The position numbers and the translations under genes are program-made. A stretch of 44,595 nucleotides of DNA from Pseudonocardiales bacterium (GTDB taxonomy: Bacteria; Actinomycetota; Actinomycetes; Mycobacteriales; Jatrophihabitantaceae). Location of the stretch: positions 1 to 44,595 of the forward strand of contig JAOPWD010000407.1 of the NCBI GenBank assembly GCA_025965875.1, given 5' to 3'. The notes under the pieces are model-generated. The model was not told the DNA's origin. It did not search any database and saw only the letters and a program-made list of their open reading frames with translations. Position 1 is the first letter of the stretch; each line of letters opens with the position of its first letter. Positions 2,270 through 17,990 of the stretch are shown piece by piece.

Positions 2270-2271
2270 GG

Positions 2272-3039
2272 CTACACCCGCACGCCCGCCAGCGCAGTGT
2301 CGGCCCGCAGGCCCAGCCGGAGTGTCTCGAGCGCGAGGACCTCCTCTGGCGGCACGTTGCCCAGGTTGACGCCTGCCCCGAACCGCTTGACGAACCACGC
2401 CTGTTGGGACTTGCGTGGTGCCTCGAAGATGACCCGGTCGACCGGGATGCGCTCGGCGATCGCGTCGACCAGGTCGGCGCGCACGCTGCCGTCGCCGTGG
2501 TAGAGCCCGACCGTGCCGCTCTCGCGGCCCTCGGCAACGACCCAGGACGCGCCGGCGTCGAGGTCGGTCGCCATCTCGGCCAGCCATTCCTCCGTGACCA
2601 CCGGCGCGTGGTCGTCCTTGGCGCCCGTCTCGGCGAACACGGTGAGTCGGGCGGACAGTTGGCCCACCAGTTCGGTCTTGCGCTCGGACGTCATTGCCTC
2701 GAGCCCGTCGGACACCTCGACCGCGCCGATGCCGACGGAAGCGGCCCACTCGCACAGTTCGTCGACCCGGCCCTGGGCGACGCATATCTCGAGCAGCGTG
2801 CCGCCGAGCGTCACCAGGACGCCGGCCTCGCTGCACAACGCGACGCGGTGCTTGACCGTCGGGTCGATGTAGGCGATGCCCCACCCGATCTTGATCACGT
2901 CGATCAGGTGCCCCGCCTGGGCCAGCAGGGCTTCGAGGGCTGCTGTCGTCATTCCCTTGTCGAGAACATGGGTCAGGCCGCGGCTGCGCGGCTTCTGGTC
3001 ACGCTCGGGTAGCTCGAGGAAGTTCGGACAGTCCCACAC
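2272..3039 (-). CDS. comA: Phosphosulfolactate synthase (ComA/XcbB1 family)
   Basis: It is predicted to add sulfite to phosphoenolpyruvate, giving (R)-phosphosulfolactate, the first committed step of the PEP-dependent coenzyme M route in methanogens and in Xanthobacter (XcbB1). The 255-aa TIM-barrel protein carries the family's conserved blocks in order: RGLTHVLDKG, DVIKIGWGIAYI, LGGTLLEI, VEVSDG, VFAETGAKDD, VAEGRESG and IFEAPRKSQQAWFV, then VNLGNV. The length is normal for the family. The GTG start at 3039 is supported by a GGAGG site 9 nt upstream. It is the first gene of a minus-strand operon and diverges from the CoM-utilisation genes across a 188-bp promoter region. Some bacteria carry ComA homologues for other sulfonate products, but the downstream neighbours make CoM the best assignment. 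Confidence 0.9.
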   Translation of the reverse strand: MWDCPNFLELPERDQKPRSRGLTHVLDKGMTTAALEALLAQAGHLIDVIKIGWGIAYIDPTVKHRVALCSEAGVLVTLGGTLLEICVAQGRVDELCEWAASVGIGAVEVSDGLEAMTSERKTELVGQLSARLTVFAETGAKDDHAPVVTEEWLAEMATDLDAGASWVVAEGRESGTVGLYHGDGSVRADLVDAIAERIPVDRVIFEAPRKSQQAWFVKRFGAGVNLGNVPPEEVLALETLRLGLRADTALAGVRV

Positions 3040-3171: not shown

Positions 3172-3227
3172 ATGGGGTCTCGCCGCATGCCAGACCTACC
3201 GTGAGCCACGAACGATGGGAGTGCCTC

Positions 3228-4622
3228 GTGCACCAGCGACTGGTTGTGGTCGGCGGCGGTGCGGCCGGGATGTCGGCCGCGTCCGCGGCGCGCCGGCTGG
3301 ATCCCGACCTCGACATCGTCGTGTTGGAGGCCGGTGGGTACGCCGCATACGGCATGTGCGGCCTGCCCTACTACCTCAGCGGCGTCGTGGCCGGGGCCGA
3401 GGCGTTGCTCGCCTACCCTCCGTCGTTCTTTCGGGAGCAACGCCGCGTGGATCTACGCCTGCACACCCCGGTCACCAGGCTCGACCCCGATCACCAGGTC
3501 GTGCATTTCCGCGAGAACGGCCGCGACGCCCGGCTGGAGTACCACCGGCTGATCGTCACGACGGGGGCGACGCCGGTCGTGCCGCCCTTGCGCGGCCTCG
3601 ACGACCCATACGTGTTCACCGTGCGGACGATGGAGGACGCGATCAGCCTGCGCAGCCTGATCGACGCCGGGCACATCGGCCGGGCGCTGATCGTCGGCGG
3701 CGGCTACATCGGTCTGGAGATGGCCGAGGCGATGGCCGCCCGCGGGGTGAAGGTGACGCTGGCCGAGGCGCTGCCCGCCTTGATGCCCAACCTGGACCCG
3801 CCGATCTCGGAGCTGGTCGAGGAGGAGGTGCGCCGACACGGCGTGGACCTGCGCCTGGGCATCAGCCTCGAGCAGGTGCGCCGCACGCCCGACGGGCTCA
3901 AGGCGATCCTGGGCGGCAAGTCCGTCCCAGTGGACGTCGTCGTGGTGGCCGTCGGCGTACGCGCCGGGGCGACGATCGCCGCCGAAGCCGGCGCCGCGAC
4001 CGGTCCGGGCGGCGCGTTGCTGGTCGACGACCAGATGCGTACGTCGCTGCCCGATGTCTACGCCGCGGGGGACTGCATCGCGCCCTTCCACCGCGTGCTT
4101 GGCCGGCCGGCGTTCGTGCCGTTGGGGCCGGCCGCCAACAAGACCGGTCGGGTCGCGGGCACGGTTGCCGCCGGCGGGCAGGCCCGGTTCACCGGCATCG
4201 TCGGCACCGCGGTCGTCAAGGTGTTCGACCTGGCTGTGGCCCGCACTGGTCTCACCCTGGGCGAGGCCATGGCCGAGGGACTGCCGGCAGTCGCCACCGA
4301 CACCGTCGGCAAGTCCCGGGCCAAGTACTACCCGGGCTCGGACCCGGTCCACGTCCGGCTCGTCCACGAGACCGGCGGCCGGCTGCTCGGGGCGCAGATG
4401 GTCGGCGGCGACGGGGTGGCCAAGCGCATCGACGTGGTCGCCGTGGCGTTGCAGGCCGGCTTCGATGTCGACGAACTGGCCGGCGCCGATCTCTCCTACG
4501 CGCCGCCGTATGCGCCGGTCTACGAACCGATCCTGCTCGCGGCCCAGGCCGCTCAGGCGAAATCCGCCCCGGACCGCCCGGCCGAAGCGCCAAGTCACGC
4601 CGCGGCCGGGTCGCGACGATGA
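3228..4622 (+). CDS. FAD-dependent pyridine nucleotide-disulfide oxidoreductase, CoA-disulfide reductase-like
   Basis: This 464-aa flavoprotein has an N-terminal dinucleotide fold (VVVGGGAAGMSAA), a central NAD(P)H fold (ALIVGGGYIGLEMAEAMAARG), the FAD-binding segment VYAAGDCIAPF and a C-terminal dimerisation domain. A single active-site cysteine lies in YGMCGLPYYLSG (C44), the arrangement of CoA-disulfide reductase and NADH oxidase, which use one Cys instead of a redox pair. It opens the operon of CoM-dependent enzymes, so reduction of CoM disulfide, mixed CoM disulfide or another low-molecular-weight disulfide is a sensible inference. CoA disulfide is the family default. The GTG at 3228 was chosen because GGGAG lies 6 nt upstream; an in-frame GTG at 3201 would add nine residues. 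The gene ends in an ATGA overlap with the next. Confidence 0.82.
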   Translation: MHQRLVVVGGGAAGMSAASAARRLDPDLDIVVLEAGGYAAYGMCGLPYYLSGVVAGAEALLAYPPSFFREQRRVDLRLHTPVTRLDPDHQVVHFRENGRDARLEYHRLIVTTGATPVVPPLRGLDDPYVFTVRTMEDAISLRSLIDAGHIGRALIVGGGYIGLEMAEAMAARGVKVTLAEALPALMPNLDPPISELVEEEVRRHGVDLRLGISLEQVRRTPDGLKAILGGKSVPVDVVVVAVGVRAGATIAAEAGAATGPGGALLVDDQMRTSLPDVYAAGDCIAPFHRVLGRPAFVPLGPAANKTGRVAGTVAAGGQARFTGIVGTAVVKVFDLAVARTGLTLGEAMAEGLPAVATDTVGKSRAKYYPGSDPVHVRLVHETGGRLLGAQMVGGDGVAKRIDVVAVALQAGFDVDELAGADLSYAPPYAPVYEPILLAAQAAQAKSAPDRPAEAPSHAAAGSRR

Positions 4623-5371
4623 CCGCCGAGCCGCACGACCCGGTGAGCAGCACCCCCCGGGTCGCCGTCGTGACCGGTGGCGCCTCGGGCATCGGCCGAT
4701 CCACCGCGACGCGGCTGAGCGCCGACGGCTGCCGGGTCGCCGTCCTCGACCTCGGCGACGCGGGGGGGACCGACGCTGAACTCACGCTGCGGACCGACGT
4801 GACCGACCCGGAGGAGGTCGAGACTGCGTTCAAAGAGGTCGTGGCCACGTTCGGCCGCATCGACGTCCTGGTCAACAACGCCGGCATCACCGGGTCGGCC
4901 GAGGCCACGCGCTGCCACGAGACGCCGATCGACGAGTGGGATCGGGTGCAGGCGGTCAATGTGCGCGGCCCCTTCCTCTGCACCCGCGCCGCGTTGCCGA
5001 CGATGCTGCGGCAGGGCTCGGGCCACATCATCACGGTGGCCTCGGTGGCCGGCCTGATCGCCTTTCCGGGACGGTGCGCCTACACGACGTCCAAGGGTGC
5101 GGCGGTGCAGTTCACCAAGTCTCTGGCCGTCGACTACGCCAGCGCCGGCATCCGCGCCAACGCCGTGTGTCCCGGCTTCGTCGAGACGCCGATGACGCAA
5201 TGGCGCCTCGACCAGCCGGAGCTGCGCGCGCAGGTCGAGACCAAGATCCCGCTCGGCCGTGTCGCGCAACCTGAGGACATCGCCGACGCCATCGCCCTGC
5301 TCGCCTCCGACCGGCTGGTTTACATGACGGGTCATTCGCTCGTGGTCGACGGCGGCTGGACCGCTTGGTAG
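4619..5371 (+). CDS. xecD: 2-(R)-hydroxypropyl-CoM dehydrogenase-like SDR
   Basis: This is a 250-aa classical SDR predicted to oxidise the R-hydroxyalkyl-CoM thioether to the ketoalkyl-CoM with NAD+. It has the cofactor motif TGGASGIG at 19-26, NNAG at 86-89 and the catalytic set Ser142, Tyr155, Lys159. The residues known in Xanthobacter R-HPCDH to hold the CoM sulfonate appear at the same numbers as I recall them: Arg152 in FPGRCAYTTSKG, and Arg196 and Arg203 in TQWRLDQPELR. That stretch is nearly identical to the Xanthobacter enzyme. Ordinary SDRs lack these arginines, so the assignment is specific. The start overlaps the upstream stop as ATGA. Substrate chain length cannot be read from the sequence. 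Confidence 0.88.
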   Translation: MTAEPHDPVSSTPRVAVVTGGASGIGRSTATRLSADGCRVAVLDLGDAGGTDAELTLRTDVTDPEEVETAFKEVVATFGRIDVLVNNAGITGSAEATRCHETPIDEWDRVQAVNVRGPFLCTRAALPTMLRQGSGHIITVASVAGLIAFPGRCAYTTSKGAAVQFTKSLAVDYASAGIRANAVCPGFVETPMTQWRLDQPELRAQVETKIPLGRVAQPEDIADAIALLASDRLVYMTGHSLVVDGGWTAW

Positions 5372-5405: not shown

Positions 5406-6179
5406 ATGACCGGACGATTGGCCGACCGGGTGGCATTGGTGACGGGTGGCGGCTCGGGGATCGGGCTGGCCGCGGCCAATCTGTTCGCGGCTGAAGGGGC
5501 GGCCGTGGCCGTCGTGGACGTCCGGGCCGAGGCAGCCGACGAGGCTGCGGGCAAGATCGTCGCCGAGGGTGGCCGGGCGATCGCCCTCGTCGCCAACGTG
5601 GCCGACGCCGCCGAGGTGGCGGCGGCAGTGGATCGAGCCGCCGCAGAGTTCGGCCGGATCGACGTCCTCTACAACAACGCCGGCGTGAACAGCGCGGGCT
5701 CGGTCGCCGACGCCGCCGAGGACGACTGGGACCGCTGCTTCGACGTCAACGTCAAGGGCACCTTCCTGTTCTCGCGTGCGGTCGTCCCGCACCTGCGCGC
5801 TGCCGGCGGCGGGGCGATCGTCAACCAGGGCTCGGTAGCCGGCCTCGTGGGGGTCCCGAACTTCGCCGCGTACTGCGCGGCCAAGGGCGCAGTGGTGGCG
5901 CTGACCCGGTCGATGGCGATCGACCTCGCCCCGGACGGGATCCGGGTCAACGCCATCTGCCCGGGCACCGTGTTCACCCCGCTCATGGAGCCCATGCTGC
6001 GTGCCCGCGGCGACGGTGACCTCGCGGCCGGGCTGGCCAAGACCGTCGTCAAGTACCCGATCGGCCGCCTCGGCAACCCGGAGGAGATCGCCCGAGTGGC
6101 CTTGTTCCTGGCCAGCGACGACGCCTCGTTCGTCACTGGATCCATCGTGACCGCCGACGGCGGGATGACCGCGCAGTAG
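5406..6179 (+). CDS. xecE: 2-(S)-hydroxypropyl-CoM dehydrogenase-like SDR
   Basis: This is a 257-aa SDR with TGGGSGIG at 13-20, NNAG at 90-93 and the catalytic set Ser143, Tyr156, Lys160. The segments SVAGLVGVPNFAAYCAAKGA, VKYPIGRLGNPEEIA and the C-terminal GGMTA closely resemble Xanthobacter S-hydroxypropyl-CoM dehydrogenase. The pairing with an R-specific partner gives the stereo-complementary set needed to use both epoxide enantiomers. In the Xanthobacter enzyme Arg211 and Lys214 bind the sulfonate. Here the Lys is kept (Lys216) but the Arg position appears to be Thr213, with Lys212 next to it, so the sulfonate pocket may be altered. AAAGGA precedes the ATG. Function in the S-branch is inferred from similarity and context. 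Confidence 0.8.
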   Translation: MTGRLADRVALVTGGGSGIGLAAANLFAAEGAAVAVVDVRAEAADEAAGKIVAEGGRAIALVANVADAAEVAAAVDRAAAEFGRIDVLYNNAGVNSAGSVADAAEDDWDRCFDVNVKGTFLFSRAVVPHLRAAGGGAIVNQGSVAGLVGVPNFAAYCAAKGAVVALTRSMAIDLAPDGIRVNAICPGTVFTPLMEPMLRARGDGDLAAGLAKTVVKYPIGRLGNPEEIARVALFLASDDASFVTGSIVTADGGMTAQ

Positions 6180-6205: not shown

Positions 6206-7126
6206 GTGGCGTTCCATCTCGATACCGACAAGCTCGTCGACCTCGACCGGGCCGTGCGCTCGATCGAGGACGGCGCGTTGGTGGCCCTCGGCGGCGGGCT
6301 GTCGGCCCGGCTGCCGATGGCACTGGTGCGTGAACTGATCCGCCAGGGCCGCAGCGGGTTGCATGTCGTCGGCTCCGCCCACAGCATCGACGTCGACGTG
6401 CTCATCGCGACCGGCACAGTCACGGTCTGCGAGGAGAGCTACGTCGGGTTCGAACAGGATCTCGGGCTGGCGCCCGCGTACCGGCGGGCGGCGGAGACGG
6501 GCACCATCGAGGTCCGCGAGAGCTGCTGCGTCACCATCCTCACCCAACTGCGGGCGGCCGAGTTCGGGCTGCCGTTCCTGCCGGTGCGGGGCGTCAAAGG
6601 CTCCGACATACGCCGGCTGCATCCCGAATACCGCGAGGTGGTCTGCCCGTTCACCGGCGAGACCTTGGTCGCGGTCCCGCCGTTGCGTCCGGATGTGGCG
6701 CTGATCCATGCCCCCCTCGGTGACCGGCGCGGGAACCTGCACCTCGATCAGCCCTACGTCCTCGACGAGCGCTTCGCGGCCGCCTCGCGCAACGTCATCG
6801 CCACGGTCGAGCGGGTCGGTTCGGCCGAGGAGGTGGCCGCGGCCGGCGTGACGATCCCGGCGCACCTGGTGAGCGCGGTGGCCGAGGTGCCCTACGGCGC
6901 GCACCCCGCGTCGTGTTACCCCGCGTACGCCTACGACCGCGCCCACCTGGGCGAGTACGTGCGAGCGGCCACCGCCGGTGGCTCCGAGCTGGCCGAATAC
7001 CTGGACCGTTACCTCACCGGTCAGCCGACCGAGGAGGCCTACCGAAAGCTGGTCGGAGCCGACCGGCTGGCGGCACTGGGCCAGTGGTCGGAGTCGATCG
7101 ACGCCTGGAAGGAGCTGTTCCGGTGA
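6206..7126 (+). CDS. CoA transferase subunit A (family I, glutaconate CoA-transferase alpha-like)
   Basis: This 306-aa protein has the family I alpha-subunit layout: GALVALGGGLSARLPMALVREL near residues 23-45, GSDIRRLHPEYREVVCPFTGE near 132-152, and the DVALIHAPLGDRRGNLHL block shared by glutaconate and 3-oxoacid CoA transferase alpha subunits. The GTG start follows an AGGAGGTAAGGAG purine stretch. It pairs with the beta subunit 49 bp downstream. In the CoM pathway the end product is a beta-keto acid such as acetoacetate, so transfer of CoA to that acid is the likely role. The actual donor and acceptor are unknown, and some members of this branch (IpdAB) act as hydrolases on ring-derived CoA thioesters. 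Confidence 0.8.
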   Translation: MAFHLDTDKLVDLDRAVRSIEDGALVALGGGLSARLPMALVRELIRQGRSGLHVVGSAHSIDVDVLIATGTVTVCEESYVGFEQDLGLAPAYRRAAETGTIEVRESCCVTILTQLRAAEFGLPFLPVRGVKGSDIRRLHPEYREVVCPFTGETLVAVPPLRPDVALIHAPLGDRRGNLHLDQPYVLDERFAAASRNVIATVERVGSAEEVAAAGVTIPAHLVSAVAEVPYGAHPASCYPAYAYDRAHLGEYVRAATAGGSELAEYLDRYLTGQPTEEAYRKLVGADRLAALGQWSESIDAWKELFR

Positions 7127-7175: not shown

Positions 7176-8033
7176 ATGAGCGCTCGCGCGAAGAGCAATG
7201 AACAGTGCTTCTCGATCGACGAGTGGTTCGTGGTCGCGCTGGCCCGCACCATCCGTGACCGTGAGGTCGTCTTCCACGGCTTCGGCAGCCCGTGTGCGCA
7301 GGTGGCGATGCACGTGGCCCGGCACAGCCACGCGCGGGACATGATGCTGGTCGAGGGCGCCACGTACTCCATCAACCCCGAGCCGCCGTTCATCCCGCCG
7401 ACCGGAAATGATCTGGCCCTGGAGCAGGGCGCGTCCTACCGGATGCGGTTCGAGGAGTTCTTCGACGCTGCGATACGCGGTGACGTCGACCGGATGTTCC
7501 TCTCCGGCGGCCAGATCGACCGGTACGGCAACACTAATGTCACCGCCGTCGGCCCGCTCGAGCGTCCCAAGGTGAAGCTTGGCGGCGGGGGCGGTGGCTG
7601 CAACCTCGCGGCCACGATCGGCCACCTGTCGCTCTGGACGACGCGGCACCGCTCGGGCCGCACGCTGGTCGAGCACTGCGACTTCATCACCGACATGGGC
7701 CACCGCACGCCGGCTGGCAGCCGGGCCGAGCTGGGCTTCGCCGGGGGCGGGCCGGAGTGGTTGGTGACCGAACTCGGTGTCTTCGACTTCGACGACGGCG
7801 GGCAGGCCCGCCTCCGTCAGCTGTTCCCCGACGTCAGCGTCGACACGGTGCGGGCCGCGACGGGCTTCGAGGTGCAGGTGGCGTCGGATCTGCGCTCAGT
7901 GCCGTTGCCGAGCAGCGCGGAGATCGCCGCACTGCGGGCCGTGGACCCGTTGGGCGTGCGACGTTCTGAGTTCGCACCGGAGGAGCTGCGGCGCACGTTC
8001 AGCCACGGACAGAGCGTGGGATGCGCCTGCTGA
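7176..8033 (+). CDS. CoA transferase subunit B (family I, glutaconate CoA-transferase beta-like)
   Basis: This 285-aa partner of the preceding alpha subunit shows FLSGGQIDRYGNTN near residues 108-121, the GGGGGGCNLAA glycine run near 132-142 and a C-terminal ELGVFDFDDGGQARL block, all typical of beta subunits. A LVEGA segment near residue 58 may hold the catalytic glutamate that forms the glutamyl-CoA intermediate, but I could not align it rigorously. That residue decides whether this is a transferase or a hydrolase-type relative. GGAGCGAAC precedes the ATG. Its last 13 nt overlap the start of the acyl-CoA synthetase gene, so the two are probably co-translated. Confidence 0.78.
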   Translation: MSARAKSNEQCFSIDEWFVVALARTIRDREVVFHGFGSPCAQVAMHVARHSHARDMMLVEGATYSINPEPPFIPPTGNDLALEQGASYRMRFEEFFDAAIRGDVDRMFLSGGQIDRYGNTNVTAVGPLERPKVKLGGGGGGCNLAATIGHLSLWTTRHRSGRTLVEHCDFITDMGHRTPAGSRAELGFAGGGPEWLVTELGVFDFDDGGQARLRQLFPDVSVDTVRAATGFEVQVASDLRSVPLPSSAEIAALRAVDPLGVRRSEFAPEELRRTFSHGQSVGCAC

Positions 8034-10183
8034 GTGCGGCGCTGACCGCACTGTTCGAGCCGCGGCGAGTGGCTCTGGTCGGGGCGTCGGACCAGCCGGG
8101 CAAGACCGGCGAGCTGATCTGGCGCAACCTGTCCGGCTTTCCCGGCGAGGTCGTCCCGGTGACCCGGTCGGACTCGGTTGCCGGCTGCAAGGCCTACCCG
8201 ACGCTCTCGGCGGTCCCGGGCGACATCGACCTGGCCGTGGTCGTCGTGCCTGCCGCGGCTGTCGCCGACGTGGTGCGCGACGCGGGGGCCAAGGGCGTAC
8301 CCGTCGCGGTGATCATCAGCGGTGGCTTCGCCGAGGTGGGGCCGGGCGGCGCGCAACTGCAGCAGCAGGTGCTGGCCGCCGCAAGGGCTGGCGGCGTGCG
8401 GCTCGTCGGGCCGAACTGCTTCGGCGTGCAGAACTGCGACCTTCCCCTGAACGCCTCCCTGGCTGCCGGCACGCCGCGCGGCGGTGGCGGGATCAGCCTG
8501 GTCACCCAGTCCGGGGCGTACGGCATGGCAATTCACTCGCTCGGCGTCGACGAACGGGTCGGGTTCGCCAAGGTGTATGCCGCGGGTAACCAGGCCGACC
8601 TGAGCGCGGCCGAATTACTCGACTATTTGGGGGACGACCCGGCCAGCCGCACGTTGTGCTTCTTCCTTGAATCCCTGCCGGACGGCCGGGCCTTCTTCGA
8701 CTCGGCGTGCGTCGTGACGCCTCGGGTGCCGGTCATCGTGGCCAAGACCGGGCGCTCGGCGGCCGGCGCCCGCGCCGTCCAGTCACACACCGCCGGGCTG
8801 GCCGGCAGCGAACGGATCTGGCGGGCCGCCTTCGACCAGGCCGGCGTGATCCTGGCCCGATCGGGCCTGGAGATGATGGACGTGGCGCGGGCGCTGGACA
8901 CGCAACCACCGCCCCGTGGCCCCCGGGTCGGCATCATCACGAACTCAGGCGGGACGGGCGTCGAACTCGCAGACCTGCTCGCCGACGAAGGCGTGCACGT
9001 CCCCGAGCTGTCGGCTGCTCTGCAGGCGGAGTTGCGCGAGGTCTTGCCGCCGTTCGCCAGCGCCCGCAACCCGGTGGACATCACGCCGGTGTGGGACCGG
9101 TTCACCGAGCTGTATCCGCTGTTGGTTGAGCGGCTCGCCCGCTCCGGTGAGGTCGACGCCGTCGTGCCCATCCTGCTGCAGCGCTCCGCCGATGAGCGCG
9201 TCGCTCGCGCGGTGGCCGACGCGGCCGGCCGGCTGCGGACCGACGCGGTGCCGGTGCCCGTCTACGTGTGCTGGGTGGCGCCGCGCACGTCCCGAACCGG
9301 GGCCGACCTGCTCCAGACCGCCGGGGTGCCGTGCTTCGAATGGCCCGAACGCACGGCTCGGGCGGTCGGACACGCCGTCCGCTATGGGGTCGTGCGCTCG
9401 AACGTCCGGCCCCCGCAGGTTGCTCCGGCCAAGCCGGCTGACGTCATGACGTTGCCCAGCGGCTGGCTCGACCCGGATGCCGGCGCAGCCCTGCTCGCCG
9501 CGTCGGGAATCCCTACTGTGCTTGGACAAACGTGCGCAACCGCCGAGGCTGCAGTCGCTGCGGCCGAGGAGCTCGGCTACCCGGTGGTGGCCAAGGTGGT
9601 GCACCCCGACCTGCTGCACAAGAGTGCGGCGCAAGGCGTGCACCTGGGGCTGACCGATCGCCATACCGTCCACGCCGCGGCCACCAAACTGCTGGGGATG
9701 GGCGCCGGTGCATGCGTACCTGTCCAGCGTCAGGAGAGCGCCGGTCTCGAGGTCATCATTGGCGGCATCCGCGACCCGCAGTTCGGCCCGGTCGTGCTGG
9801 TCGGCCTGGGCGGAGTGTTCGTCGAGGCGATCGACGACGTTGCTGTCGGCCTAGCCCCACTGCGCCACGACCAAGCCCGGCGCCTGCTCGCGGACCTGCG
9901 CGGTCATCACGTGTTCGACGGAGCGCCCGGCAGCGAACCGGCCGACCTGGATGCATTGTGCGCGCTGATCTGTGCCGTGGGGGACGTGCTCGTGGCGGTG
10001 CCCGAGATCGCCGAACTGGACCTCAATCCGGTGCTCGTCAACGGGTCTGCCTGCACCGCGGTTGATTGGCGAATTCGCATCGATGACCTCGTGGGAAATG
10101 GCCAAAATCCGCCCGCCCAGGACGAGACTCTCGGCCAGGTTTCGCCCTCTGAGGGGGGAGAATCGCGCCCCGGATCTCCGTAG
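8021..10183 (+). CDS. ADP-forming acyl-CoA synthetase (acetate--CoA ligase family, fused alpha-beta)
   Basis: This 720-aa protein has an N-terminal CoA-binding Rossmann domain (VALVGASDQPGKTGELIW), succinyl-CoA-synthetase-like ligase domains with the phosphohistidine region QSHTAGLAGSERIW (His256), and a C-terminal ATP-grasp domain (YPVVAKVVHPDLLHKS, then VIIGGIRDPQFGPVVLVGLGGVFVE and ELDLNPVLV). It should interconvert an acid, ATP and CoA with acyl-CoA, ADP and phosphate. Its start overlaps the CoA transferase beta gene by 13 nt. Together the two provide alternative ways to activate the acid made by the CoM pathway. The acid preference cannot be predicted. The last 25 residues are Gly/Pro/Ser-rich and look like a loose tail. 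Confidence 0.87.
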   Translation: MRLLSAALTALFEPRRVALVGASDQPGKTGELIWRNLSGFPGEVVPVTRSDSVAGCKAYPTLSAVPGDIDLAVVVVPAAAVADVVRDAGAKGVPVAVIISGGFAEVGPGGAQLQQQVLAAARAGGVRLVGPNCFGVQNCDLPLNASLAAGTPRGGGGISLVTQSGAYGMAIHSLGVDERVGFAKVYAAGNQADLSAAELLDYLGDDPASRTLCFFLESLPDGRAFFDSACVVTPRVPVIVAKTGRSAAGARAVQSHTAGLAGSERIWRAAFDQAGVILARSGLEMMDVARALDTQPPPRGPRVGIITNSGGTGVELADLLADEGVHVPELSAALQAELREVLPPFASARNPVDITPVWDRFTELYPLLVERLARSGEVDAVVPILLQRSADERVARAVADAAGRLRTDAVPVPVYVCWVAPRTSRTGADLLQTAGVPCFEWPERTARAVGHAVRYGVVRSNVRPPQVAPAKPADVMTLPSGWLDPDAGAALLAASGIPTVLGQTCATAEAAVAAAEELGYPVVAKVVHPDLLHKSAAQGVHLGLTDRHTVHAAATKLLGMGAGACVPVQRQESAGLEVIIGGIRDPQFGPVVLVGLGGVFVEAIDDVAVGLAPLRHDQARRLLADLRGHHVFDGAPGSEPADLDALCALICAVGDVLVAVPEIAELDLNPVLVNGSACTAVDWRIRIDDLVGNGQNPPAQDETLGQVSPSEGGESRPGSP

Positions 10184-10243: not shown

Positions 10244-11353
10244 ATGCGAATCGGTTCTCAGGACGTACTGCTCCCCACTGCGATGGTGGGCAACTACCCG
10301 AACCCGCGCTGGTACGACGGGCAGGCCTTCGCCACCTTGCCCAAGGGCGAGTTCATCTTCGACGCCATCAGCCGCGAGGCCTACGAGGACGCCGTCGGCG
10401 CCATCGTGCACGACCAGGAGGCGGCCGGCCTCGACATCATCAGCGACGGCAAGGTCTACGGCGGCGACTCCCCGTACGGCCAGATCCTCTACCACTACAT
10501 CGAGCGGATGACCGGCTACAAGCTGTCCGGCCCGCCGATCGGGCTGCCGATCTACTCCACGCTCTACGCGCCGACCTGTGTCGGCGAGGTACGCCGGGAG
10601 TACCCGTTCCACACGGCGGCACTGCGGGCGGTGCGCAAGGCGACCAGGAAGCCGGTCAAGATCTCCTACACCGGCATCCAGGTTCTCGCCGCGGCTACGA
10701 ACAACCAGTACTACAAGGAGACGAAGGAACTAGCGATGGCGATCGCGAAGGCCTTCAACGAGGACTTCAAGGAACTGGCCGACCTGGGCTGCGACATCAT
10801 CCAGGTCGACGAGTTCGTCTGGCCCTACGGCATGGGTGACTGGGAGGTCGAGGTTCTCAACGCGGCCATCGAGGGCGTCGGCTGCCAATTCTGGGTGCAC
10901 ACGTGTTGGGGCAACTACTCCGGCACGCCCGGCTACTTCCCGGACGATGAAGAGCGGGAGAATGGCGCCTGGGTGCTCGACCACCGGCCCGCGGCGGCGC
11001 CGGCGCCGGCGCGCGCGCAGGGCATCTTCCCCCAGGTGAAGGAAGCCAACATCGACGCCCTGAACTACGAGGTCGGCCGCACCGGCCCGGATGACCTCAA
11101 GCCGCTGCTCGATCACGAATGGCAGAAGAACTTCGTCGCCGGAATCATCGACGTCAAGAGCACGGTCACCGAGACGGCCGACGAGGTCGCCGAAGCGATT
11201 CGCCAGGTGCTCGAGTTCGTCCCGGCCGAACGGCTCGGCCTGAGCACCGACTGCGGGTTGATCAACCTGCCGCGGATGATTTCGGCGGGCAAGCTGCGGG
11301 CGCTGGCCGACGGCGCCGCCATCGTCCGGGCTGAGCTGGAGTCGAAGAAGTAG
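10244..11353 (+). CDS. xecA: Epoxyalkane:coenzyme M transferase-like, MetE-family zinc protein
   Basis: This 369-aa protein has the C-terminal methionine-synthase (MetE) fold that epoxyalkane:CoM transferase shares. The expected zinc ligands H-X-C...C are His219, Cys221 (VHTCWGN) and Cys337 (STDCGLINLPR). The acidic IIQVDEF segment at 185-191 is also conserved in the fold. EaCoMT activates the CoM thiol on zinc and opens the epoxide ring, which is the entry step to the hydroxyalkyl-CoM dehydrogenases encoded upstream. The length matches known EaCoMTs (about 370 aa) and is much shorter than full MetE (about 750 aa). A Pro/Ala-rich insertion at 248-260 is unusual. AAAGGGG lies upstream of the ATG. 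A core-type methionine synthase is the alternative; the CoM neighbours argue against it. Confidence 0.85.
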   Translation: MRIGSQDVLLPTAMVGNYPNPRWYDGQAFATLPKGEFIFDAISREAYEDAVGAIVHDQEAAGLDIISDGKVYGGDSPYGQILYHYIERMTGYKLSGPPIGLPIYSTLYAPTCVGEVRREYPFHTAALRAVRKATRKPVKISYTGIQVLAAATNNQYYKETKELAMAIAKAFNEDFKELADLGCDIIQVDEFVWPYGMGDWEVEVLNAAIEGVGCQFWVHTCWGNYSGTPGYFPDDEERENGAWVLDHRPAAAPAPARAQGIFPQVKEANIDALNYEVGRTGPDDLKPLLDHEWQKNFVAGIIDVKSTVTETADEVAEAIRQVLEFVPAERLGLSTDCGLINLPRMISAGKLRALADGAAIVRAELESKK

Positions 11354-11532: not shown

Positions 11533-12150
11533 ATGCCGATGCTGCCCAGTTCCGTTGCCGTGGGAATTCCGGGCGTCGATCTCGCCCCCGGCGACCATGT
11601 GTGCGTGTTTTATCCGGGCTTGGCCGAGCGCAACGAGATCCTGATCCCGTACCTGCGTGCGGGCCTGCAAGCCGGCGACAAGTGCGTCTGCGTCGTCGAC
11701 GCCGACGAGCCGGACGACGTCGTTTCGGCGTTGGGGCCCGATGTCGACCTGGGCGGGCGACTGGGCCGCCAACAACTCGAGGTTCAACGCTCACAGGACA
11801 CCTACCTCAAGGGCGGCGCCTTCTCCACCGAAGCAATGCTGGAGTTCTGGGATCGCGAGGTCGGCGGCGCGGTGGAGGGCGGCTTCAGTTTCGCTCGGGC
11901 CGCCGGCGAGATGACGTGGGCGCTGCGCCAACTGCCTGGAGTGGATGAGCTGATCGGGTACGAATCGCGACTGAATCAGTTCCTGCCGCGCTACCCGCAG
12001 GTCATTCTATGCTTCTACGAACTCGACATGTTCAGCGGCGAACTGCTGGTCGACGTGCTCAAGACGCATCCCAAAGTGCTGCTGGGCGGCATGGTTCTCG
12101 ACAATCCGTACTACTTGGAGCCCGACGAGTTCCTGGCCTCACGGAACTGA
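11533..12150 (+). CDS. MEDS (DcmR sensory) domain protein
   Basis: This 205-aa protein consists almost wholly of a MEDS domain (methanogen/methylotroph, DcmR sensory). It shows the opening GDHVCVFYPGLAERNEILIPYLRAGLQAG-type pattern (residues about 20-48), CVCVVD, and the closing LPRYPQVILCFYELDMFSGELL followed by HPKVLLGG. Such domains sense small, often hydrocarbon-related ligands in DcmR-like regulators. There is no DNA-binding domain here. The stop lies 2 bp before the PucR-type regulator start, so sensor and regulator are probably made together and may interact. The position in the CoM island suggests it senses an alkene, epoxide, CoM thioether or similar; this is inference. Confidence 0.8.
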   Translation: MPMLPSSVAVGIPGVDLAPGDHVCVFYPGLAERNEILIPYLRAGLQAGDKCVCVVDADEPDDVVSALGPDVDLGGRLGRQQLEVQRSQDTYLKGGAFSTEAMLEFWDREVGGAVEGGFSFARAAGEMTWALRQLPGVDELIGYESRLNQFLPRYPQVILCFYELDMFSGELLVDVLKTHPKVLLGGMVLDNPYYLEPDEFLASRN

Positions 12151-12152
12151 GC

Positions 12153-13841
12153 GTGACGGTCACCGCACCGGAGGCCACCCGGGCAGACACGGAGCTGCGC
12201 AGCCAGCTCTCGGACCTGCAATGCCTGTTGATGCTGTCGATGCTGATGACCGAGAGCGGCGACGAGGGCAAGATCCTGCAGCTCGCCGCCACGTCGGTGC
12301 CATCGTTCGGTCACACCCATCTGATCGGCGTGCGCTTTACCGACGGCAACTGGTGGGGGCCGGGGCCTGCCGCGGCGACCGAGGGTCTGCGCGACGAGGT
12401 CCAGGCGCAGGTGGCGCTGCTCGATGCGAGCGGTGGCGCGATAGCGGTGGCCGGCCAGGGCTGGACCTGGGCGTTACCACTGCGGGTGTTCGCCGGTCAC
12501 CTCGGTTACTTCATCGTTGCGGCGGCGAAAGAGCCCGCTGCGTCAGAACAGTTCCTGTTGCGCGTTCTCGCGCAACAAACCGGTGTGGCGCTCGGAAACT
12601 CGCGCCTGCACACAAAGGAGCGGTCCTCGGCTGAGGAGTTGCGGGCCGCGAACGCCGCGCTGGCCGAGACCGTGCGTGCCTTGGAGCAGTCGACCCAGAT
12701 CCACGATCGGTTCACCCGGGTGGCCATGGCTGGCGAAGGGCAGGACGGTGTGGCCCGAGCTCTACATGAGCTGACCGGATACCCGGTGGCCGTGGAGGAT
12801 CGCTACGGCAACCTGCGGGCGTGGGCCGGACCTAACCGTCCCGACCCGTACCCGAAGGATCCGCAGGCGCGGCGCGAGCAGATGCTGCGGCGCGCGCTGC
12901 GCGAAGGTCGCCCGATCCGCGAGGGTGGCCGGCTGGTGGCGCTGGCCAGCCCGTCGGCCGAAGTGCTCGGGGTGCTCGCGCTGATCGACCCGGCCGGTGC
13001 GGTCGGCGACCGTGAGCAGATCGCCATCGAACATGGCGCCACCGTCCTGGCCATGGAGCTGGCCCGGCTGCGCAGCCTGGCCGAGGCGGAGTTGCGGCTG
13101 CGGCGCGATCTGGTCGAGGAGTTGCTGTCCGGCACCGAGGAGGAAGGCGCCGTGGCCCGGGCGCAGGCACTTGGTCATGACCTGGAGCAGCGCAACCGGG
13201 TCGTGGTGGCCGAGGGGCGCGGACGCGTCAAGAGTCAGGAGCCGTTCTTCCACGCCGTCCGCCGTGCTGCGCGCGACCTGCACGTCGGCTCGCTGCTCGT
13301 CGCCCGCGGTGACTCCGTCGTGCTGATCTCGGACGCCGACCTGCCGTGGGAGCGATTCCGGATGGCGATCCTGACCGAGCTGGGTGGCGGCCGGTGCAGC
13401 CTCGGAGTCGGTGGCTGGTGCAGCCATCCGCGCGACCTGCCGCGCTCCTACCGCGAGGGCCAGTTGGCGTTGCAGATGCAGGGCATCGCGCACGGCAAGG
13501 ACCGGGCCACCTGCTACGACGACCTGGGTGTGTACCGGATTCTGTGCGAGGTGCAGGACGGCTCGAGTGTCGAGCGCTTCGTGCGGCAGTGGCTGGGCAC
13601 GTTGCTGGAGTACGACGAGCGCAAGCACTCCGACCTGGTCACCACGTTGACCCAATACCTGGAGTGCGGCGGCAGTTACGACGCCACGGCGCTGGCGCTG
13701 TCGGTGCACCGCAGCACGCTGAAGTACCGGCTGCAGCGGATCCGCGAGATCTCCGGGCACAACCTCACCGATCCCGACACCAACTTCAACCTGCAACTGG
13801 CCACCCGCGCCTGGCGCACCCTCCAAACCCTGCAAGCGTAG
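12153..13841 (+). CDS. PucR/CdaR-type transcriptional regulator with GAF-like sensor
   Basis: This 562-aa protein starts at GTG 12153, 2 bp after the MEDS gene. The N-terminal part (about 15-150) looks like a GAF domain, ending in FLLRVLAQQTGVALGNSRL. A coiled segment rich in Ala/Glu follows, then a second sensor-like region (YPVAVEDRYGNLRAW to GVLALID). The C-terminus is the PucR helix-turn-helix: LVTTLTQYLECGGSYDATA, LSVHRSTLKYRLQRIREISG and the closing DPDTNFNLQLATRAW. Regulators of this family usually activate catabolic operons. With the MEDS partner it is the obvious candidate controller of the CoM genes on both sides. The ALDH gene converges on it with an 18-bp gap. Confidence 0.85.
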   Translation: MTVTAPEATRADTELRSQLSDLQCLLMLSMLMTESGDEGKILQLAATSVPSFGHTHLIGVRFTDGNWWGPGPAAATEGLRDEVQAQVALLDASGGAIAVAGQGWTWALPLRVFAGHLGYFIVAAAKEPAASEQFLLRVLAQQTGVALGNSRLHTKERSSAEELRAANAALAETVRALEQSTQIHDRFTRVAMAGEGQDGVARALHELTGYPVAVEDRYGNLRAWAGPNRPDPYPKDPQARREQMLRRALREGRPIREGGRLVALASPSAEVLGVLALIDPAGAVGDREQIAIEHGATVLAMELARLRSLAEAELRLRRDLVEELLSGTEEEGAVARAQALGHDLEQRNRVVVAEGRGRVKSQEPFFHAVRRAARDLHVGSLLVARGDSVVLISDADLPWERFRMAILTELGGGRCSLGVGGWCSHPRDLPRSYREGQLALQMQGIAHGKDRATCYDDLGVYRILCEVQDGSSVERFVRQWLGTLLEYDERKHSDLVTTLTQYLECGGSYDATALALSVHRSTLKYRLQRIREISGHNLTDPDTNFNLQLATRAWRTLQTLQA

Positions 13842-13859: not shown

Positions 13860-15272
13860 TCAGCGGCCGTACTTTTGCCAGTAGGCGCCGAAGAGTTCCT
13901 CTTCGCTGACCGGGCTCGGGCTGATGGGCCGCGACACCCACGTGAGGTTGACGAAGTGCCGGGCGTTGACGTTCTCGGTGGTGATGTTGCCGCCCCAGGT
14001 GCCGCAGCTCAGGCTCAGCGTGAACGGCAGGCCGTTGCGTGGGCTGCCGGCGCCCTCGTTGAGGTTCTGGTTGACGAGGACGCGCGCGGTTTTCGTGCCG
14101 AACGCCAGCGCGTCAACGTGGTCGTCGCGACTGGTGTGGATGCCGCAGGTGTGCCCGATGCCCTGATAGCCGGTGATGGCATTCACCTGCTCGACCGCGT
14201 TCTCGATGCCGTCGGCATAGCGATACACGGCAAGCACCACGGAGAGTTTCTCGCCCGAGAAGGGATGTTCGGGGCCGACGCCGTCCTCTTCGACGATGAG
14301 GAAGCTGCGGTCGTCGATTGTGAACCCGGCCAGCTCGGCTATCGCCTGCGCTGACTTGGCGATGACGTCGGGCGTGGGCACCGGGCCCCCGTCGGGCCAC
14401 ATCCGTTTCTGCAGCAGGGCTTTCTCCTCCGCGTTGCACAGGTGTCCGCCGCGAGCGACGAGCCGGTCCAGCAGGTCCGAGTAGATCCCGGCCTCGGCCA
14501 CGACGGCGTTGTCGGCCAGACAGCTGGTGGCGTAGTCGAAGGTCTTCGCCATGACGATGGCCGCCGCCGCGTCGTCCAGGTCGGCGCTCTCGTCGACGAC
14601 ATGGACGGCGTTACCGACCCCTACTCCGTAGGCGGGCGTCCCGGAACTGTAGGCGGCCTTGACCATCCCCGCGCCGCCGGTGGCGACGACGAGATCAACC
14701 TGCTTCATCAACTGCTGGGTCTTGGCGATCGACGGGCTGGGCAGCATCTGCACGAGGTCGGCGGGCGCGCCGACCTCGGCGCAGGCCTCGCGCATGAAGT
14801 CCACCACGGCAGCCGTCGTGTCGGTGGTGCGTGGGTGTGGCGCCATGATGATCGCGTTGCGGCCCTTCAGCGCGAACAGCGCCTTGACCGGCGGGGTGGC
14901 GTCCGGGCCGGTGGTGGGGATCAGCGCGGCGACCACTCCGACCGGCTTGGCGATCTTGACCAGGCCCCGGTCGGGGTCCTCCTCGACGACGCCGACCGTG
15001 CGGACGGCGCGCATGTCCGACAGCACACCCAGGACGCGCTTATTGATCTTGGTGACCTTGTCTTCGTAGTTGCCGAAGCCGCCCTCGTCCACTGCCAACT
15101 TGGCCAGCGCCTCGGCCCGCTCGCTGCGCGCCACCGCCCACGCCACCGCGGTGCAAAGCTCGTCGACCTGGTCCTGCGTGTAGTCGGCGATGGCAGCCTG
15201 CGCGGTCCGAGCCCGGCCGACCACCTCCGCGACTTCCTGCTGCGCCGTGTCCTGCTGAGTCGTCTGGGTCAT
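13860..15272 (-). CDS. CoA-acylating aldehyde dehydrogenase (acetaldehyde/sulfoacetaldehyde dehydrogenase-like)
   Basis: This 470-aa aldehyde dehydrogenase is of the short acylating type. The catalytic cysteine is Cys251 in YATSCLADNAVV. IPTTGPDATPPVKALFALKGRNA at 118-140, VVATGGAGMVKAAYSSG at 195-211 and NQNLNEGAGSPRNGLPFTLSLSCGTWGGN near the end are typical of the EutE/AdhE/SauS branch. It would turn an aldehyde, NAD(P)+ and CoA into acyl-CoA. In this context sulfoacetaldehyde, a relative of CoM intermediates, or a short aldehyde from the substrate are both plausible; sequence alone does not decide. ATG 15272 was chosen; upstream in-frame extension lacks a ribosome site. It diverges from the 2-KPCC-like gene with 118 bp between starts. 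Confidence 0.82.
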   Translation of the reverse strand: MTQTTQQDTAQQEVAEVVGRARTAQAAIADYTQDQVDELCTAVAWAVARSERAEALAKLAVDEGGFGNYEDKVTKINKRVLGVLSDMRAVRTVGVVEEDPDRGLVKIAKPVGVVAALIPTTGPDATPPVKALFALKGRNAIIMAPHPRTTDTTAAVVDFMREACAEVGAPADLVQMLPSPSIAKTQQLMKQVDLVVATGGAGMVKAAYSSGTPAYGVGVGNAVHVVDESADLDDAAAAIVMAKTFDYATSCLADNAVVAEAGIYSDLLDRLVARGGHLCNAEEKALLQKRMWPDGGPVPTPDVIAKSAQAIAELAGFTIDDRSFLIVEEDGVGPEHPFSGEKLSVVLAVYRYADGIENAVEQVNAITGYQGIGHTCGIHTSRDDHVDALAFGTKTARVLVNQNLNEGAGSPRNGLPFTLSLSCGTWGGNITTENVNARHFVNLTWVSRPISPSPVSEEELFGAYWQKYGR

Positions 15273-15357
15273 GGGGAAACATTGCCGCGAACACGCCCGG
15301 AGACGGATCGACCCGGCAGGACGAACTTGGCTCAATGTGCCGTCCGGCTGGGACGTG

Positions 15358-15375
15358 TCGGACGCAGCGGTCCGA
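15358..15375. promoter_or_regulatory. Perfect inverted repeat in the ALDH / 2-KPCC divergent promoter
   Basis: TCGGAC and GTCCGA are separated by six bases, ending 15 bp before the ATG of the 2-KPCC-like gene. It lies within the 118-bp divergent promoter region and could be an operator. Six-base arms are short, so chance occurrence is possible. Confidence 0.3.
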
Positions 15376-15390
15376 ACGCATTGTTGCTGC

Positions 15391-16950
15391 ATGGACCTGC
15401 GAAACACCGTGCTGAGCATGGCTGAATGGGAAGACCTCATCCACCGCGCAGAGATCGGCGAGGTCGGCGAACCCCTCGTCAACGTCGACCACCTCGATTC
15501 CTCGCCCTACGACGCGATCTTCGTCGGCGGTGGCGCGGGCGGCCGCTTCGGATCCGCCTACCTGAAGGCGCGCGGCGGTCGGCAGCTGGTGATCGACAAG
15601 TGGCCGTTCCTCGGCGGTTCGTGCCCGCATCACGCCTGCGTGCCGCACCACCTCTTTTCCGAGGCGGCCCGGGAGATGGACTACCAGCGGTGGAACGCGG
15701 GAACGCTGTGGTTCCCGGAGTTCGACGACAAGCGGTGCTCGATCCTCGACCTGGTCGAACTGTTCAAGAACGGGCGCAACAACGCGCATGCGTTCATGAA
15801 TTGGCAGAGCAAGGAGCAGTTGGGGATGGAGTACATCCTCAACACCCCAGCCACGGTGATCGACGCCAACACCGTCGAGGTGGCCGGCGAGCGTTACAAC
15901 ACCCGCAACATCGTGCTCGGCACCGGCGCGAGCACCTACCTGCCCGACGTCCCCGGTATCGAAAAGCCGGGCGTCTTCGACTTCGTGAGCCTCATCGAGG
16001 AACTCGACTACGAGCCGTCGCGCTGCGTCATCATCGGCGGATCGAAGATCGCCCTCGAGTACGGCTCGTTCTACCAGGCCGCCGGCTGCCAGACGACGAT
16101 CGTCTCGCGCAGCCCGCTCATGCGCACCGCCAGCCTGCACCACGTCGACGAGGATCTGCGCACCTACGTCGTCGACGGGATGCGCAAGCGGGGCGTCGAG
16201 ATCCTTGAAGGCGCCCAGCCGATCGAGGTGCTCGGCAACGGCAAGGTCACCGGGGTGCGCGTCCAGTTGGCCGACGGAAGCGAGCGGACGATCGATACCG
16301 ACTTCGTCTTCATCGGGACGGGCGAGCGACCCAAATCGCAGCCCTATGTCGACGCCCTCGGCGTTGAGGTTGACGACCGGGGCAGCATCGTCGTCGATTC
16401 GCGGATGCGTACGTCGGTGCCGGGTGTGTACGCGATCGGTGACCTGATCGGCTCGCCGATGGAGATGTTCAAGGCGCGCAAGTGCGGCATGACGGCCGCG
16501 CGCAACATCATGGGCGAGCCGTACGAGTTCGACTTCTCCGAGTACCCGGACTTCCTGCACACGACGTACGAGGTGACGTGGGTCGGGCTGACGGAGGCCG
16601 AGGCGCGCGAGCGCTACGACGACGTCGTGGTCATCCAGATGCCGCCCAAGGGCCTGCGCAACGAGGAGCTCAGTCTGCCGATGGCGGAAGGTTCGATGCT
16701 CTACGGGTTTACCCGGCCCGAGCTCAGCGGTTTCCAGAAGGCGGTCTATGACGGTAAGACCCGGCTGCTGCTGGGCGCACACCACGTCGGGTTCGGCGCG
16801 AAGGACGCGTTCCAGTACCTCGATCACCTGATCCGCAAGGGCATCACGGTGGATGAGATGGGGGAGATGAACGAGCTGTTCCTCAACCCCGACCACTTCA
16901 TCCAGCTGTCCCGGTTGCGGGCGGGGCAGTTGGATCTCACCAGCCTGTGA
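15391..16950 (+). CDS. xecC: 2-ketopropyl-CoM oxidoreductase/carboxylase-like disulfide oxidoreductase
   Basis: This 519-aa FAD/NADPH disulfide oxidoreductase closely resembles Xanthobacter 2-KPCC (523 aa), which cleaves 2-ketopropyl-CoM and carboxylates the carbanion to acetoacetate and CoM. The redox pair is Cys78/Cys83 in GGSCPHHACVPHH. Where normal family members have a His-Glu dyad, this protein has Phe497 and His502 (NELFLNPDHFIQL), the substitution that makes 2-KPCC a carboxylase by excluding protons. The sulfonate-binding arginines of 2-KPCC correspond to Arg52 (GRFGSAYL) and Arg363 (MEMFKARK). NADP- and FAD-binding segments are IIGGSKIALEYGSF and VYAIGDLIGSPMEMF. ATG 15391 gives an N-terminus alignable with XecC; ATG 15418 is an alternative, and neither has a clear ribosome site. 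A related ketothioether could be the substrate. Confidence 0.93.
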   Translation: MDLRNTVLSMAEWEDLIHRAEIGEVGEPLVNVDHLDSSPYDAIFVGGGAGGRFGSAYLKARGGRQLVIDKWPFLGGSCPHHACVPHHLFSEAAREMDYQRWNAGTLWFPEFDDKRCSILDLVELFKNGRNNAHAFMNWQSKEQLGMEYILNTPATVIDANTVEVAGERYNTRNIVLGTGASTYLPDVPGIEKPGVFDFVSLIEELDYEPSRCVIIGGSKIALEYGSFYQAAGCQTTIVSRSPLMRTASLHHVDEDLRTYVVDGMRKRGVEILEGAQPIEVLGNGKVTGVRVQLADGSERTIDTDFVFIGTGERPKSQPYVDALGVEVDDRGSIVVDSRMRTSVPGVYAIGDLIGSPMEMFKARKCGMTAARNIMGEPYEFDFSEYPDFLHTTYEVTWVGLTEAEARERYDDVVVIQMPPKGLRNEELSLPMAEGSMLYGFTRPELSGFQKAVYDGKTRLLLGAHHVGFGAKDAFQYLDHLIRKGITVDEMGEMNELFLNPDHFIQLSRLRAGQLDLTSL

Positions 16951-16957
16951 GGCGAGC

Positions 16958-17893
16958 ATGCGCGTGGCAATGGGCATCGGCGGCGACGTCCTCGGTGCGC
17001 CCATCACGCCGCAGCAGGTAGTCGAGCAGGCTGAGCAGGCCGAACGGGACGGCTTCCCGTCGGCCTGGACAACGCATTTCGCGCGGGGCGTCGATGCGCT
17101 GAGCATGCTCGCGGTGGCCGGCACCAAGACCAGCCGAATCGAGTTGGGTGTCGGGGTCGTGCCAACCTACCCGCGCCATCCGCTCGCACTGGCCCAACAG
17201 GCGGCCACGACCCAGGCGTTCTGCGGCGGTCGGCTCACCCTGGGGGTCGGTGTCTCGCACCGACCGGTGATCGAAGACTTGCATGGCATCCCGTATGTGC
17301 GCCCGGCTGCGCACATGCGGGAGTACCTGTCGGTCCTGGTCCCGCTGCTCAACGAGGGCACGGTGAACTATGCCGGCGAGTTCTACCGGGTCAATGGCGG
17401 CTTCACGGTGCCGGGCACCAGCCCCGTTTCGGTGGTCGTCGCTGCCCTGTCGCCGAAGATGGTGCAGGTCGCCGGCGAATGTGCGGACGGCGTCGTGACC
17501 TGGTTGGCCGGGGTGCGCAGCCTGGAGGGGCACATTGTCGGGCCGCTGACCCAGGCTGCGGCAGCCGCCGGTCGTCCGCGCCCGAGGGTCGTCGTGGCCC
17601 TGCCGGTCGCCGTGTGCGACGACGCCGACCTCGGCCGGCAGAGTGCCGACACGGTGTTCGCGCGCTACGCCACGCTGCAGAACTACCAGCAGTTGTTCGA
17701 ACGCGAAGGCGTGCAGTCGCCGGGCGCCGCCGCCGTGGTCGGAACTGAAGCGGACGTGACCGACCAGTTGCGCCGGTTCGCAGACGCCGGCACCACCGAA
17801 TTGTGGCCAATCGTGTTCGGCGTGGGCGCAGACCCCCAGGCCAGCATCCGGCGCACCCAGCACTTGCTCGCCGAGCTGGCGAAAACCGGCTGA
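16958..17893 (+). CDS. LLM-class (luciferase-like) flavin-dependent oxidoreductase
   Basis: This 311-aa TIM-barrel protein is of the bacterial luciferase/F420-dependent reductase superfamily. Landmarks are RVAMGIGGD at the N-terminus, QAEQAERDGFPSAWTTHF, TSRIELGVGVVPTYPRHPLALAQQA, GRLTLGVGVSHRPV and a C-terminal glycine-rich VVGTEADVTDQLRRFADAGTTEL. It may use F420 or FMN; the sequence does not settle this. It starts 7 bp after the 2-KPCC-like gene, so the two are co-transcribed and it probably acts in the same pathway, perhaps on substrate or redox supply. Its reaction is unknown. Confidence 0.8.
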   Translation: MRVAMGIGGDVLGAPITPQQVVEQAEQAERDGFPSAWTTHFARGVDALSMLAVAGTKTSRIELGVGVVPTYPRHPLALAQQAATTQAFCGGRLTLGVGVSHRPVIEDLHGIPYVRPAAHMREYLSVLVPLLNEGTVNYAGEFYRVNGGFTVPGTSPVSVVVAALSPKMVQVAGECADGVVTWLAGVRSLEGHIVGPLTQAAAAAGRPRPRVVVALPVAVCDDADLGRQSADTVFARYATLQNYQQLFEREGVQSPGAAAVVGTEADVTDQLRRFADAGTTELWPIVFGVGADPQASIRRTQHLLAELAKTG

Positions 17894-17955: not shown

Positions 17956-17990
17956 TTTCGTCGCTCCTGCCGACGGTGTCAACTCAGTAC

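Follow-up and report, generated by a model that had tools for sequence, protein, structure and literature searches.

Aerobic degradation of ethene and vinyl chloride beyond EtnE, the epoxyalkane:CoM transferase, is described in the available passages of PMC11507031 as a series of steps that are only partly confirmed. In a proposed route, a CoM reductase/carboxylase converts 2-ketoethyl-CoM into malonate semialdehyde, which goes on through malonate and malonyl-CoA to acetyl-CoA (excerpts of PMC8727900). This ethene-branch carboxylation stands as a proposal in the passages drawn on here (PMC11507031, PMC8727900, PMC6440738). Clusters with a CoA transferase and a synthetase mark ethylene users, not propylene users (an excerpt of PMC6440738), and the plasmid relatives, those of Nocardioides JS614 and Mycolicibacterium chubuense NBB4, come from ethene or vinyl-chloride degraders (excerpts of PMC8727900 and PMC6440738). 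The ethylene-detoxification cluster of Methylohalobius crimeensis holds EtnE, SDR, CoA transferase and CoM genes together with a SauS-like aldehyde dehydrogenase (ALDH) and a 2-KPCC-like E3, without an alkene monooxygenase; under ethylene 11 of its 13 proteins were up, including the sulfoacetaldehyde-dehydrogenase-like and E3-like ones (passages of PMC11507031).

The locus described here comes from a Pseudonocardiales bacterium. The window, by which we mean the whole stretch of DNA analysed, is 44,595 nucleotides long and is an entire contig. It carries EtnE, SDR, CoA transferase, ADP-forming ligase and CoM-biosynthesis genes together, the set of an ethene/vinyl-chloride-type cluster. Our main reading, to which we give a probability of roughly 0.6, is that 15391-16950 encodes a 2-KPCC family enzyme acting in an ethene/vinyl-chloride-type CoM epoxide pathway that would lead through malonate semialdehyde to malonyl-CoA. 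The enzyme family, the pathway type and the malonate semialdehyde proposal were known already (PMC8727900, in part). New here is a CoA-acylating ALDH gene that tracks the carboxylase gene, divergent from it and 118 bp apart.

Gene content and relatives of the cluster

The features are listed with their coordinates in the window and their strand.

14..1345, minus: adenylosuccinate-lyase-family CoM-biosynthesis gene, 66% to JS614
1358..2272, minus: DUF7714 protein; its Py2 homolog, Xaut_5051, belongs to the CoM genes of that strain
2272..3039, minus: ComA, phosphosulfolactate synthase (CoM biosynthesis)
3201..4622, plus: CoA-disulfide-reductase-like flavoprotein, single-Cys CGLPY type
4619..5371, plus: SDR1, R-HPCDH ortholog, Arg152 and Arg196 equivalents present
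5406..6179, plus: SDR2, S-HPCDH-like, Lys214 equivalent kept, Thr at the Arg211 equivalent
6206..7126, plus: CoA transferase subunit A
7176..8033, plus: CoA transferase subunit B
8021..10183, plus: ADP-forming acyl-CoA synthetase
10244..11353, plus: EtnE/epoxyalkane:CoM transferase, 369 aa, 85% to JS614, 49% to the Py2 homolog
11533..12150, plus: MEDS-domain regulator
12009..13841, plus: PucR/CdaR-type regulator
13860..15272, minus: CoA-acylating aldehyde dehydrogenase, SauS-like, divergent from the carboxylase
15273..15390, no strand: shared intergenic region of the divergent ALDH/carboxylase pair, 118 bp
15391..16950, plus: 2-KPCC ortholog (ketoalkyl-CoM oxidoreductase/carboxylase), 519 aa, from phmmer, residue alignment and AlphaFold2 model
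15391..16950, plus, marked residues of the 2-KPCC ortholog: C78/C83, H80, H133, M136, M359, R52/R363, F497/H502, Q505
16958..17893, plus: F420-dependent LLM oxidoreductase (TIGR03564), beginning 7 bases past the carboxylase stop

Two other gene models were rejected. One joined 3215-5371 into a 718-aa SDR fusion, whose first part belongs to another frame, that of the 473-aa flavoprotein; the other made DUF7714 a 508-aa protein, the real gene being 1358-2272. The true start of the PucR/CdaR-type regulator is probably downstream of 12009, since its open reading frame overlaps the MEDS gene. The flavoprotein at 3201..4622 is possibly a CoM disulfide reductase. The next two CoM genes in the JS614 order were found at the end of contig C110, which suggests that this contig may neighbour that of the window. 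The LLM oxidoreductase recurs close to the carboxylase in JS614, NBB4, Amycolatopsis and Acidimicrobiia loci.

The carboxylase is 86.9% identical to the copy on pNOCA01 (JS614) and 86.3% to that on pMYCCH.01 (NBB4), and both plasmid neighbourhoods carry a gene set that matches the window cluster, with nearly the same neighbours. In the tree it falls in a nine-row clade with the JS614, NBB4, Mycobacterium SM1 and JS60-type copies (support 100/100). No hit to etnABCD alkene monooxygenase genes was found in the window, whereas each of the two plasmids encodes such an enzyme next to EtnE or to a carboxylase copy. In NBB4, two plasmids together hold three 2-KPCC-like genes (L095:4702-6267, L088:16001-17557 and L089:12001-13563), one adjoining the ALDH and the others near alkene monooxygenase genes, which suggests a division of labour. 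The M. crimeensis cluster, which resembles the window in the genes named above and in having no alkene monooxygenase, is proteobacterial, unlike the window, and the 2-KPCC homologs of other methanotrophs often have Tyr at position 506 (Xanthobacter numbering).

One soluble diiron monooxygenase was found in the assembly, which is 89.67% complete. It lies on contig C99 with a GroEL gene downstream; its alpha-reductase-beta gene order is, we assume, that of propane monooxygenases, and its alpha subunit is 37% identical to the NBB4 alkene enzyme. The epoxide may arise by co-oxidation, as is proposed for methanotrophs (a passage of PMC11507031), or through an enzyme encoded in the tenth of the genome that the assembly lacks.

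The carboxylase and its active site

Translation of 15391-16950 (plus strand) gives 519 residues and then a stop. The frame has no stop upstream as far as 15271, and the start at 15391, proposed in an earlier sequence-only reading, is reasonable because homologs align from there. That reading had called the product 2-KPCC-like, and the searches bear it out. With phmmer against PDB the best match is 2-KPCC of Xanthobacter autotrophicus Py2 (1mo9; plasmid gene Xaut_5048) at E 7e-176 over residues 3-519, followed directly by the 2-KPCC variants 7mgo and 7mgn, whereas the best match outside this family is mercuric reductase at 4e-37; given this difference, the match is not due to chance. An AlphaFold2 model (48 aligned sequences, mean pLDDT 90.6), overlaid on 2-KPCC as the same reading had proposed, gave Z 46 with an rmsd of 1.8-1.9 Å over 509-513 residues (for 7mgn, 512 residues including the N-terminal part, 1.8 Å, Z 46.3); the best other fold, glutathione reductase, reached Z 35.4 with 442 residues aligned. 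Assignment as a glutathione or mercuric reductase was rejected, as NCBIfam scores are far under the cut-offs. The product is a 2-KPCC ortholog, a member of a known enzyme family, with full-length homology and 51-52% identity to the Py2 enzyme.

All residues that had been singled out before are present in the translation, namely Cys78 and Cys83 (Cys-X4-Cys), Phe497, His502, Arg52 and Arg363. In Xanthobacter numbering these align as C82, C87, F501, H506, R56 and R365, the numbering of F501 and H506 being backed by the PDB titles of 7mgo (F501H) and 7mgn (F501H/H506E). From work on the Xanthobacter enzyme we take R56 and R365 to be the ligands of the CoM sulfonate, and we assume for F497 and H502 the catalytic roles of F501 and H506. 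Active-site residues were tabulated for 79 full-length homologs (the window, 74 genome loci and 4 plasmid loci), without four partial loci (L053, L079, L081, L086) and the third NBB4 copy (L095). Thirteen of the 16 tabulated positions are invariant in all 79: R56, C82, H84, C87, H137, M140, M359, M361, F362, R365, F501, Q509 and L510. The window enzyme shares with that of Py2 all 13 of these, which include Arg56/Arg365, as well as the Phe501/His506 pair; it differs at residue 505, Asp here and Thr in Py2.

These residues differ in diagnostic value. The Cys pair had been counted among those that set the carboxylase apart from ordinary relatives, and there the claim fails, since the pair is a shared feature of the disulfide-reductase superfamily and occurs in paralogs of the same genome (L002, CPNIAC; L006, CLNVGC). 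The Phe/His pair and the arginines do discriminate: paralogs L002 and L005 have His...Glu where the carboxylase has Phe...His, and R52/R363 are kept in 79/79 homologs.

Position 506 is His in 62 homologs and Tyr in 17 (L057, L058, L062, L063, L066, L068-L077, L083, L085). The latter are all proteobacterial, methanotrophs by name except for the betaproteobacterial MAG L071, and fall in two places on the 2-KPCC tree. The 2-KPCC family may include members that do not carboxylate, and carboxylation may be altered in these Tyr506 homologs.

Substrate, divergent dehydrogenase and proposed route

Because the enzyme is a 2-KPCC ortholog, the reaction we would most readily ascribe to it is reduction with NADPH that cleaves the thioether of a ketoalkyl-CoM, coupled to CO2 capture; it probably carboxylates. 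Which ketoalkyl-CoM it uses cannot be told from residue conservation, because the catalytic positions are the same in both branches, and a residue pattern separating ethene from propene enzymes was rejected on this ground. The two SDRs fit hydroxyalkyl-CoM oxidation without deciding between ethene and propene. The best match of SDR1 is R-HPCDH (2cfc, E 1.6e-75; next 3.7e-50), and the equivalents of Arg152 and Arg196, which we take to be the R-HPCDH sulfonate residues, are kept in 51/51 relatives, these being matches of at least 43% identity that outscore SDR2 at the same location. For SDR2 the best match is S-HPCDH (4gh5, E 9.8e-60), with the next close behind (1.9e-57); SDR2 has the Lys214 equivalent and a Thr at the Arg211 equivalent, such that the presumed S-HPCDH sulfonate pair Arg211/Lys214 is incomplete. 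An R- and S-HPCDH-like pair could suit a chiral substrate, as in propene metabolism. Since the carboxylase gene lies in a near-copy of the JS614/NBB4 ethene/vinyl-chloride clusters, the substrate is likely 2-ketoethyl-CoM rather than 2-ketopropyl-CoM, giving malonate semialdehyde. The sequence-only reading had named 2-ketopropyl-CoM for an assay, and this is probably not the physiological substrate.

The divergent ALDH is CoA-acylating by homology and nearest to SauS, the acylating sulfoacetaldehyde dehydrogenase (NF047625). It matches the full length of the SauS profile with 559.4 bits, below the curated cut-off of 600 bits, and unlike SauS it belongs to a group of its own at 65-80% identity, the next homologs being at 53% or less. 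Among 394 genomes of the class, its own included, the carboxylase occurs in seven and the ALDH in six; with its own genome left out, all five ALDH genomes are among the six carboxylase genomes of 393 (hypergeometric 8e-11 with kinship ignored, four of the carriers being in one family). From the 81 other loci with a carboxylase gene, 50 records (49 genomes and the Py2 plasmid) were searched for the ALDH. Of the 49 carrier genomes, 34 have one with at least 65% identity and 15 have none at that level; the Py2 plasmid record holds no homolog. The ALDH lies inside the fetched flank of the carboxylase in 28 of 82 loci and is divergent from it in 10 of 82, with 118-227 bp between the two. A promoter scan of 15273-15390 returned 0 sigma-70-like sites, and comparison of the ten divergent intergenic regions by eye established no shared operator. 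A GGGAC-like stretch, seen by eye in several of them, is a possible candidate operator.

In the proposed pathway, EtnE would open the epoxide with CoM, and SDR1 would oxidise the hydroxyalkyl-CoM to ketoalkyl-CoM through its R-HPCDH-type sulfonate clamp. In the carboxylase, where Arg52/Arg363 would grip the CoM sulfonate, NADPH acting via FAD and Cys78/Cys83 would attack the thioether sulfur and release an enolate; CO2 would be added to it in a pocket that Phe497 keeps proton-free, while His502 steadies the enolate. With epoxyethane as the start the product would be malonate semialdehyde, which the divergent ALDH would convert to malonyl-CoA. With a carboxylate in place of the sulfonate, malonate semialdehyde corresponds to sulfoacetaldehyde, the SauS substrate, so a SauS-descended ALDH beside the carboxylase would be suited to making malonyl-CoA. 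The analysis shows the enzyme family, the catalytic residues, the gene content of the cluster and the joint occurrence of the two enzymes; the substrate, the addition of CO2 and which of the final two steps comes first we infer. That the carboxylase and the ALDH form a two-enzyme CO2-fixing module, taking 2-ketoethyl-CoM to malonyl-CoA with release of free CoM, is put forward tentatively and with odds somewhat against it; direct formation of malonyl-CoA by the ALDH would leave the CoA transferase and the ADP-forming ligase without an obvious task. If the module is real, ethene or vinyl chloride carbon would enter metabolism at the fatty-acid precursor malonyl-CoA, the pair would supply the middle steps that aerobic ethene degradation has been missing, and the SauS-like gene would move from CoM biosynthesis to catabolism. 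A carboxylase with a dedicated CoA-acylating dehydrogenase would make a specific, testable route with two marker genes for the pathway, and fixation of CO2 on an aldehyde enolate would broaden what is so far a very small group, the carboxylases of the disulfide-reductase type.

Other accounts of the locus give a different role to one or the other enzyme. That the 2-KPCC ortholog is a non-carboxylating disulfide reductase with a mere resemblance to 2-KPCC is barely credible: it has the general fold of glutathione reductase, but Phe/His replaces His/Glu, the sulfonate arginines and N-terminal part are conserved, identity to 2-KPCC is 51-52% and the Z gap is 11. A propene-type cluster, in which the enzyme acts mainly on 2-ketopropyl-CoM to form acetoacetate for activation by the CoA transferase, is unlikely, though every catalytic position is as in the Xanthobacter enzyme and the cluster holds one R-HPCDH with one S-HPCDH-like SDR and a 3-oxoacid-CoA-transferase-like subunit. 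Against it, the nearest carboxylase relatives sit on ethene/vinyl-chloride plasmids, SDR2 has Thr at the Arg211 equivalent, and the partner ALDH of the window is without a homolog on the Py2 plasmid. The window enzyme differs from that of Py2 also in lying with a CoA transferase and an ADP-forming ligase, and clusters with a CoA transferase and a synthetase are assigned to ethylene rather than propylene users (PMC6440738, in part).

We think it rather improbable that the ALDH serves CoM biosynthesis and not the carboxylase step, although it is assigned there as a functional analogue of XcbA (PMC11507031, from section 13) and sulfoacetaldehyde is a CoM precursor in archaea (a passage of PMC12068725). 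A DUF7714 gene is present in 22 of the 28 loci where the ALDH is near the carboxylase, and the role of XcbA analogue is doubtful because DUF7714 is the family of Xaut_5051. In Py2 Xaut_5051, presumably XcbA1, adjoins ComA. The Py2 route is moreover described as completely determined (PMC12068725, in the passage available), and the Py2 plasmid is without such an ALDH. A reversed order of the last steps, where the ALDH would make a CoM-acetyl-CoA thioester from 2-ketoethyl-CoM and the 2-KPCC homolog would then cleave it to acetyl-CoA by protonation or to malonyl-CoA by carboxylation, we rate as less probable again. In its favour, the ALDH is CoA-acylating and has a relative that acts on a sulfonate aldehyde, a class to which 2-ketoethyl-CoM also belongs, and the two genes are a divergent pair; yet with catalytic positions as in the small-ketone enzyme, a pocket that accommodates a CoA thioester is hardly to be expected.

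The remainder of the window includes a stress-like block at 20971-42912, with GAF histidine kinases, response regulators, universal stress proteins, a phosphoketolase, an acetate kinase, an acyl-CoA synthetase with a GNAT domain and a NuoF-like protein. Between the cluster and this block are two nitroreductase-family genes (17976-18986 and about 20023-20931), which are 57% identical to each other and which we take to merit the label Acg-like.
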